Of a stretch of DNA of 41,194 bases, positions 16,013 to 39,887 are shown piece after piece. This stretch comes from an uncultured bacterium (GTDB taxonomy: Bacteria > Actinomycetota > Actinomycetes > S36-B12 > CAIYMF01): NCBI GenBank assembly GCA_903927265.1, contig CAIYMF010000194.1, positions 1-41,194 of the forward strand, in the 5' to 3' direction. The notes beneath the pieces are model-generated. The model searched no databases and was not told the origin of the DNA. It was given only the letters and a program-made list of their open reading frames with translations. The translations under genes were made by a program, and so were the position numbers. The stretch's first letter is position 1, and each line of letters opens with the position of its first letter.

Positions 16013-16034
16013 CCAACCCCTCCGCCGTCACACC

Positions 16035-16106
16035 TCCACCACCACCACCACCACCCCCCCCGCATCGGGGGCACCCAAGCGCGCACCTAGCGCGCAGCGC
16101 CGCCCC
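16035..16106 (+). repeat. Structured intergenic repeat, copy 1, with CCA run
   Basis: A run of CCA triplets and C residues (16035-16060) leads into the 34-nt repeat at 16061-16094 (identical with copy 2 for 35 nt). An inner stem GCGCGC / GCGCGC (16079-16084 with 16090-16095, loop ACCTA) and a 5-bp outer stem (16068-16072 with 16102-16106) can form. It lies just after the sugar transferase and in sense with it. It overlaps the 3' end of the convergent ribokinase gene and provides that gene's stop codon. Confidence 0.75.
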
Positions 16107-16926
16107 AGTCCCCTAGCTCCCAGCCCTGAGCGCCACGGATTTCCACGGCGCGTGCACCCGCGCCAACCGCCAACTCCAGCGCTTCCTGCCGACCAGCACC
16201 CAACGCCAACGCTGCGGCAAGTGCACCGGTGAACGCATCGCCCGCCCCGGTGGAATCGACGACGTGTGCGTCAGGACTCGGTACAGCAAGCTCGCCCCAC
16301 CGCGCCCCAGCTGCGCCGCGGGTCATAACCACTGACGAATGGCTCAGCCCCGCGCCCATGAGCGCGGCGTACTCACTCTCATTGACGACCAGAATGTCGC
16401 AAAGTTCAAGCATGTCGATCGGAAGCACTGCGAACGGTGACGGATTGAGCACGACGATCGCGCCCGCCGCGTGACCTTTCACGATCGCTCGGCACACCAC
16501 ATCGACGGGAACTTCCAGTTGCAGCAGCACCACATCTCCCGGGCCAAAGTGCGCCTGCTCGACATCGTCAGGTGTGAGCGCGGAATTCGCCCCTGCCACC
16601 ACGACAATGCAGTTCTCCCCATGTGCATCGACGAGAATCACTGCGTGGCCCGTGACCAGCCCTGACACAACTCGAAGCGAACCCACACCAACGCCTCGCT
16701 GTTCGAGCCCGCTCCGATAGCGACCGCCATTGTCGTCATCACCAAGGCAACCCACGAGCGTCACGCGCGCGCCCGCGGCGCTCGCGGCGACCGCTTGATT
16801 GGCGCCTTTACCACCTGGGTAGGTGCGGAAATCGCGCCCCGCGACGGTCTCACCCGGCGCAGGAAAGGTCTCCACATTCGCGACGAGATCAATATTCAAC
16901 GATCCGACCACCCATACCTGCGCCAT
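16087..16926 (-). CDS. Ribokinase-family (PfkB) sugar kinase
   Basis: A 279-residue PfkB-family kinase closest in pattern to ribokinase. The N-terminal motif GSLNIDLVANVETFPAPGET, the glycine-rich GGKGANQAVA (38-47) and the anion-hole/catalytic motif DSTGAGDAFTGAL near residue 230 are intact. It would phosphorylate ribose or another sugar with ATP in the cytoplasm. An AGGAG lies 7 nt before the ATG. It is the last gene of the second polysaccharide operon, 9 nt after the acyltransferase, and no ribose transporter is nearby, so another sugar substrate is possible. Its last codons and the stop TAG lie inside the intergenic repeat. Confidence 0.9.
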   Translation of the reverse strand: MAQVWVVGSLNIDLVANVETFPAPGETVAGRDFRTYPGGKGANQAVAASAAGARVTLVGCLGDDDNGGRYRSGLEQRGVGVGSLRVVSGLVTGHAVILVDAHGENCIVVVAGANSALTPDDVEQAHFGPGDVVLLQLEVPVDVVCRAIVKGHAAGAIVVLNPSPFAVLPIDMLELCDILVVNESEYAALMGAGLSHSSVVMTRGAAGARWGELAVPSPDAHVVDSTGAGDAFTGALAAALALGAGRQEALELAVGAGARAVEIRGAQGWELGDWGGAAR

Positions 16927-21921: not shown

Positions 21922-21962
21922 GCCCCCGACTTTACCCCGCCCCCACTGTCGCCCCCACTTTC

Positions 21963-21995
21963 CGCATGGGGGGACACTCAGCACGCATAGGCGCA
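21963..21995 (+). repeat. Possible degenerate copy of the structured repeat
   Basis: CGCAT followed by a G run, then CAGCACGCATAGGCGCA, resembles the 34-nt repeat with several changes and small gaps. The C-rich lead before it (CGCCCCCAC then CCCCCACTTTCCGCAT) also resembles the lead of copy 3. The stems are poor and no plus-strand gene ends here, so this may be a decayed copy or chance. Confidence 0.3.
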
Positions 21996-22021
21996 GTTTT
22001 CTTACCACACCATCTGGGAAA

Positions 22022-31429: not shown

Positions 31430-31475
31430 CGCATCGGGGGCACCCAAGCGCGCACCTAGCGCGCCTGAGTGCCCC
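31430..31475 (+). repeat. Structured intergenic repeat, copy 2
   Basis: The best-formed copy. The outer stem is GGGGCAC (31437-31443) with GTGCCCC (31469-31475), 7 bp. After a symmetrical internal loop (CCAA and CTGA) the inner stem is GCGCGC (31448-31453) with GCGCGC (31459-31464) and loop ACCTA. It lies 12 nt after the MinD-like gene, in sense with it, and just before the end of the convergent binding-protein gene, so it may stop transcription from either side. No U run follows. Confidence 0.85.
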
Positions 31476-31486
31476 AACGTTGTGTA

Positions 31487-39841: not shown

Positions 39842-39887
39842 TGGGCGCCGAAACGCGCTAGGTGCGCGCTTGGGTGCCCCCGATGCG
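39842..39887 (-). repeat. Structured intergenic repeat, copy 3
   Basis: The reverse complement of 39854-39887 is identical to the 34-nt repeat core. The inner stem keeps six pairs with one G-U. The outer stem keeps 5 of 7 pairs (GGGGCAC with GCGCCCA). It lies 24 nt after the phosphodiester glycosidase-like gene and in sense with it, like copies 1 and 2 after their genes. Confidence 0.78.

Follow-up and report, generated by a model that had tools for sequence, protein, structure and literature searches.

Three identical copies of a 34-nt core, CGCATCGGGGGCACCCAAGCGCGCACCTAGCGCG, lie in the window, by which we mean the whole 41,194-nt stretch of DNA analysed here. The original prediction placed them at 16061-16094 (+), 31430-31463 (+) and 39854-39887 (-), and the sequence, re-read at all three sites, bears out every coordinate and strand. 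Each copy lies, as had been described, 3' of a gene on its own strand, namely a sugar transferase, a ParA/MinD-type ATPase and a phosphodiester glycosidase gene, with gaps between stop codon and repeat of roughly 50, 14 and 25 nt, respectively. Copies 1 and 2 also adjoin a convergently transcribed gene at its 3' end (pfkB and Peripla_BP_6, respectively). Parts of the initial description required correction. The repeat is not 34 nt long, the true unit (hereafter F1) being a 46-nt sequence running from GCATC to CCCCA, and the inventory of the window was incomplete, a sister repeat (F2) having been overlooked (Table 1).

Table 1. Repeat units, their leaders and paired units in the window, its genome (G000) and the genome of its congener (G001).
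Feature	Position	Strand	Context or basis
F1 copy 1, 46-nt unit	16062..16107	+	After the Bac_transf (PF02397) sugar transferase gene; overlaps the end of convergent pfkB
F1 copy 1 leader, pyrimidine-rich, G-poor, with CCACCACC repeats	16013..16061	+	Sequence and family-wide composition
F1 copy 2	31431..31476	+	Between convergent ParA/MinD-like and Peripla_BP_6 genes
F1 copy 3, 1-nt deletion within CCCC	39842..39886	-	Between a NAGPA-family gene and a downstream co-directional gene
F2 copy, 46-nt sister repeat, GCATSGGGGG...C-rich frame	21964..22009	+	
F2 copy leader, pyrimidine-rich	21930..21963	+	Sequence and family composition
F1-F2 facing doublets	G000: L107, L108, L136, L141, L142; G001: L121, L128, L149, L161		
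F1-F1 doublets	L116:3930-4170; L152:3990-4230; L159:3915-4163; L123:4010-4245		Around a related ~125-nt palindromic segment (GAAATCTGCC...GGCAGATTTC)

The F1 unit, which includes the block CCTAGCGCG, is laid out as GCATC GGGGG CACCCAAGCGCGCACCTAGCGCG YYNNGGCG CCCCA. Across the F1 alignment the first 33 nt are nearly invariant, columns 34-41 are variable, and CCCCA then recurs. The two-part hairpin with an ACCTA loop proposed at the outset is recovered on folding, with GGGGC-a-CC pairing with GG-c-GCCCC and an inner stem of GCGCGC-ACCTA-GCGCGY; copy 2 is the best-paired in the window (MFE -31.2, z -4.6, for the 57-nt stretch folded). Pairing of the outer arm, another element of that proposal, is good in copies 2 and 3, but folding of copy 1 favours an alternative CCCCCG-CAU-CGGGGG hairpin. 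The covariation expected of such a structure was not borne out, no compensatory changes being seen among the F1 copies in the covariance-model alignment, because the 5' arm never varies. Variants of the 5' inner stem (GCGCCT and GCTCCT) occur in both species without a compensating change. A pyrimidine (C or T) occupies column 34, which faces G18, in 90 of 90 F1 copies, as would be needed for G-C or G-U pairing with G18. The leader upstream of the unit is composed of 75% C+T and approximately 11% G over 30 nt (intergenic 30-mers are 50% pyrimidine), with the pyrimidine excess peaking at -1 to -9. On the 3' side of the unit, family-wide composition revealed no T enrichment, and a consensus scan found no U-run near copy 2.

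F2 was uncovered by a blind de novo k-mer search of genome regions. Its 46 nt are arranged as GCATG GGGGG ACAYTNAGCACGCATAGRSGCAGTTTTCYTA CCCCA with a pyrimidine tract ahead, such that the two families have a common frame (pyrimidine tract, GCAT[C/G]GGGGG, related middle, CCCCA) and equal length. The F1-type hairpin is not formed by F2 on folding, the mean z being -1.3 as against -3.8 over 48 copies of F1.

That many copies would be found genome-wide was correctly anticipated, the window's genome holding approximately 49 of F1. With up to three mismatches allowed, the F1 core occurs at 47 places in G000 and a reversed-pattern control at 0, a number greatly in excess of chance, while a covariance model trained on 31 copies detects 49 in G000 and 44-47 in G001, the sole congener compared. 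The latter, the Lac Pavin MAG JAPLAU01, was also the only other species matched by the F1 pattern scan of genome_contigs; comparisons within the genus thus cover two genomes, both of them MAGs. The exact F1 core is absent from all other species in genome_contigs, and a survey of 166 genomes of the order gave more than stray three-mismatch F1 matches in these two alone. F2 has 48-51 copies in G000 and 44-45 copies in G001, and a search of 38 further genomes of the order found none. Viral contigs yielded zero exact matches to either core, the plasmids searched no relative, and Rfam 15 no match to the window at E up to 1. Both families lie almost wholly outside called ORFs, with only two copies of each within them. 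F1 and F2 are restricted to a single genus of lake actinobacteria, whose two known species both carry them; a repeat search in other genera of the family returned repeats unrelated to either. One such genome, G005, has a palindromic repeat of its own (GATGTCACTGGTGAAACGG...CCGTTTCACCAGTGACAT, e.g. L203, L205 and L208), with 68 arm matches genome-wide, and this repeat hardly occurs in the family's other 16 genomes. In G002 (L171, L176, L183 and others), palindromic repeats of sequence GTCGAGCGTAGTCGA are grouped into large inverted clusters and are numerous over 384 kb.

The repeat had been said to lie always in sense with the preceding gene. This holds for all three window copies but, genome-wide, for 36 of the 46 F1 copies that have a gene called upstream of them, and individual cases may be wrong, as genes were called on a MAG with a simple codon-score caller. 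The resulting bias in G000 (36:10) is significant for F1 (p 8e-5), whereas F2 follows a same-strand gene in 25 of 47 cases, which amounts to no orientation bias, and the two families differ in this respect (Fisher p 0.016; both p-values take sites as independent). A general sense trend is therefore real for F1 only. The median distance of F1 past the stop codon is 44.5 nt.

Comparison of the two species, which differ at approximately 12% of bases, relied on ortholog pairing by purpose-written scripts. Orthologous sites are occupied in G001 for at least 41 of 49 F1 and at least 42 of 51 F2 copies; two apparent absences of F2 are in fact occupied sites with a 1-nt difference in a run, so the real shared fraction is higher. 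The F1 copies of the window correspond to L126 (copy 1), L162 (copy 2, with an identical 3' arm) and L146 (copy 3, without the CCCC deletion) in G001. Divergence between orthologs is 0.0195 per site in the F1 core, as against 0.18 and 0.11 in the 60 nt upstream and downstream, respectively; the variable 3' arm diverges at 0.15. In columns 2-33 of F2 it is 0.045, with changes mostly in a few free columns. The copy-specific GCGCCT and GCTCCT variants occupy matching loci in the two species, and this locus-bound inheritance implies that the likeness of copies is not kept by gene conversion. A slowly evolving core and the near-complete sharing of sites indicate an element that no longer moves and is under constraint; the conservation of F1 and F2 reflects purifying selection on sequence, rather than recent copying. 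Since F2 is constrained yet folds poorly, the property under selection must be more than an RNA hairpin. At one locus of G000 (L134:3954-4004, compared with L280), synteny with G001 ends 4 nt past an F1 copy, as though joint gain or loss of a gene and F1 had taken place.

Neighbouring units less than 3.5 kb apart in G000 are facing, with heads outside, in 19 cases, tandem in 6 and pointing away from one another in 0. The spacer of F1-F2 doublets is mostly 21 nt and otherwise 22-23 nt. Two of these doublets were folded: in L142 (G000), F1 and F2 pair with each other to give one long hairpin (z -5.9), and L121 (G001) has the same outer stem in a weaker fold (z -2.2). The palindromic segment of roughly 125 nt inside some of the F1-F1 doublets looks like an older full-length element. 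Other doublets enclose ordinary genes. Those with Pfam matches (alpha/beta hydrolase, serine dehydratase, fumarase, MFS) led us to reject a reading in which facing or tandem units form gene cassettes around single genes; further enclosed genes, judged by eye from their translations, are PpdK-, Dus- and surface-protein-like. L123:4190-4340 of G001 contains decayed tandem copies of the 5' half of F1 together with their pyrimidine leader.

The suggestion that the repeat is REP-like gains support from its approximately 49 copies, its intergenic placement, a head motif before the hairpin and the inverted doublets. With confidence that is about evenly balanced, we propose that F1 and F2 are REP/REPIN-like sister families whose GCAT head is new and which lack Y1/RAYT, that they have a sequence-specific role, and that F1 copies are 3'-UTR hairpins. 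Under this proposal, the units would have spread in the ancestor of the genus through an enzyme, and would then have been frozen in place and kept by purifying selection on their sequence. Sense-transcribed F1 copies would most likely constitute 3'-UTR hairpins. Rho binds C-rich, G-poor RNA, and the C-rich, G-poor leader may be a Rho-loading-type site, while the hairpin (GGGGC...GCCCC / GCGCGC-ACCTA-GCGCGY) may mark the end of the RNA or protect it from 3' trimming. A 3'-UTR hairpin preceded by a Rho-site-like tract is the probable role of F1.

The terminator without a U-run, or RNA-end stabiliser, that was first envisaged is compatible with F1 in view of its 36:10 sense bias, strong hairpin and C-rich leader, but leaves F2 unexplained: this family is equally constrained outside a few columns, poorly folded and unoriented, and a 3'-UTR role alone is consequently insufficient. 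That F2 is fixed although neither folded nor oriented suggests the involvement of a sequence-reading factor, protein or RNA, and the uncompensated variants of the F1 5' inner stem likewise point to one. We infer such a factor for both families, and it might read either RNA or DNA. A more specific version, which we regard as rather doubtful, is that the approximately 100 fixed intergenic sites, foldable in F1 and not in F2, are read by a sequence-specific factor as a polar element, e.g. a directional transcription barrier or loop anchor. Were this the case, the facing pairs and pyrimidine leader would give polarity to near-invariant 46-nt motifs private to the genus.

If the reader is a DNA-binding protein, F1 and F2 may be binding sites of a putative genus-specific chromosome organiser, polar transcription barrier or domesticated recombinase recognising GCATSGGGGG ... 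AGCRCGCA..TAG ... CCCCA, and the F1 hairpin would be incidental. We consider this unlikely, though by no means far-fetched. It would accommodate the constraint on both families where F1 alone folds, their common frame and equal 46-nt length, the indifference of F2 to gene orientation, the facing arrangement of doublets, and the GCGCCT and GCTCCT variants inherited uncompensated in both species. It fits less well with the significant sense bias and strong self-hairpin of F1, or with a pyrimidine at column 34 opposite G18 throughout, as a G-U or G-C pair needs, and no candidate protein has been identified. A distinctly improbable alternative is that F1 is a genus-specific family of U-less intrinsic terminators, akin to TRIT of M. 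tuberculosis. The sense bias, the strong hairpin and the median placement 44.5 nt past genes speak for such a family, but 10 of 46 F1 copies have no preceding sense gene, an invariant 5' arm and loop are unnecessary for a terminator, no T-run follows F1, and the sister family forms no hairpin.

The inverted arrangement of units raises two further possibilities, both concerned with mobility or rearrangement. F1 and F2 might be the ends of mobile or recently mobile MITEs, their conservation stemming from recent copying, which would agree with facing doublets bearing terminal inverted repeats, the common palindromic interior of roughly 125 nt in F1-F1 doublets, and the F1 copy 4 nt from the lost-synteny junction at L134. 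We find this very improbable, given that at least 41 of 49 F1 and at least 42 of 51 F2 sites are common to species some 12% diverged, that locus-specific variants are inherited, hence without homogenisation, that no target duplication was seen in doublets by eye, and that the enclosed genes are ordinary. An active MITE is rejected by the sharing of F1 and F2 sites between the species, the apparent F2 absences being 1-nt indels in occupied sites. The notion that facing pairs serve as DNA invertase sites (invertons) draws on the single genes or short segments that inverted pairs flank, and is scarcely credible: the interior has the same orientation in 13 of 13 doublets present in both G000 and G001, which refutes inversion at the species level. 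Two constrained REP-like sister families with a sequence-specific role remain our preferred reading.

Comparison with known repeats places this reading in context. The TRIT study reportedly describes a repeated actinobacterial hairpin 3' of genes, and by that description TRIT resembles F1; the existence of F2 and the invariant 5' arm of F1 would be unexpected of a terminator. TRIT (RNIE; cited in PMC3526491) is a proposed M. tuberculosis terminator motif. ERIC- and Correia-type MITEs have inverted-repeat ends and a palindromic interior, as do some of the doublets described here, but F1 and F2 are mostly single units with no target duplication seen and no turnover between species. The closest parallels are the REP/REPIN elements of the GTAG and CGTC super-families, which are short, intergenic and lineage-restricted, with a fixed unpaired head beside the hairpin foot, and which occur singly and as head-outside homo- or heterodimers with spacers of approximately 20-100 nt, mostly between co-directional or convergent genes (Di Nocera 2013, PMC3733652). 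CGTC REPs, moreover, lack a dedicated transposase (PMC3733652). F1 and F2 resemble REP/REPIN elements in their intergenic units, head and hairpin foot (the hairpin being strong in F1 and weak in F2), occurrence as singles and head-outside homo- and heterodimers, range of spacer lengths, gene context and lineage restriction. They differ in their 46-nt units, GCAT head and pyrimidine leader, in the poor folding of F2, in the lack of a Y1/RAYT gene in their genomes, and in the retention of both sites and letters across species. The RAYT/Y1 transposase (PF01797) was found in 0 of 2 genomes of the genus by a search that was positive in 5 of 14 control genomes. The head GCAT[C/G], present in essentially all copies, is neither GTAG nor CGTC, and by this sequence F1 and F2 are outside both super-families. 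The CGTC group has in common with them the missing dedicated transposase and the dominance of head-outside dimers, but has simple stems of 8-9 bp and another sequence, and is mostly alphaproteobacterial. To our knowledge, REPs are not usually as position-stable as F1 and F2, which amount to about 100 REP-like units per genome at the same sites in two species approximately 12% diverged, with no REP transposase found. The usual view of REP-type repeats is that they are slow, selfish elements, and whether they benefit the host is debated. Evolution of the core at a pace 5 to 9 times slower than that of the flanking sequence is direct evidence that REP-like repeats can be under site-by-site selection, and the conservation of F1 and F2 turns the benefit of REPs to their host into a testable question.
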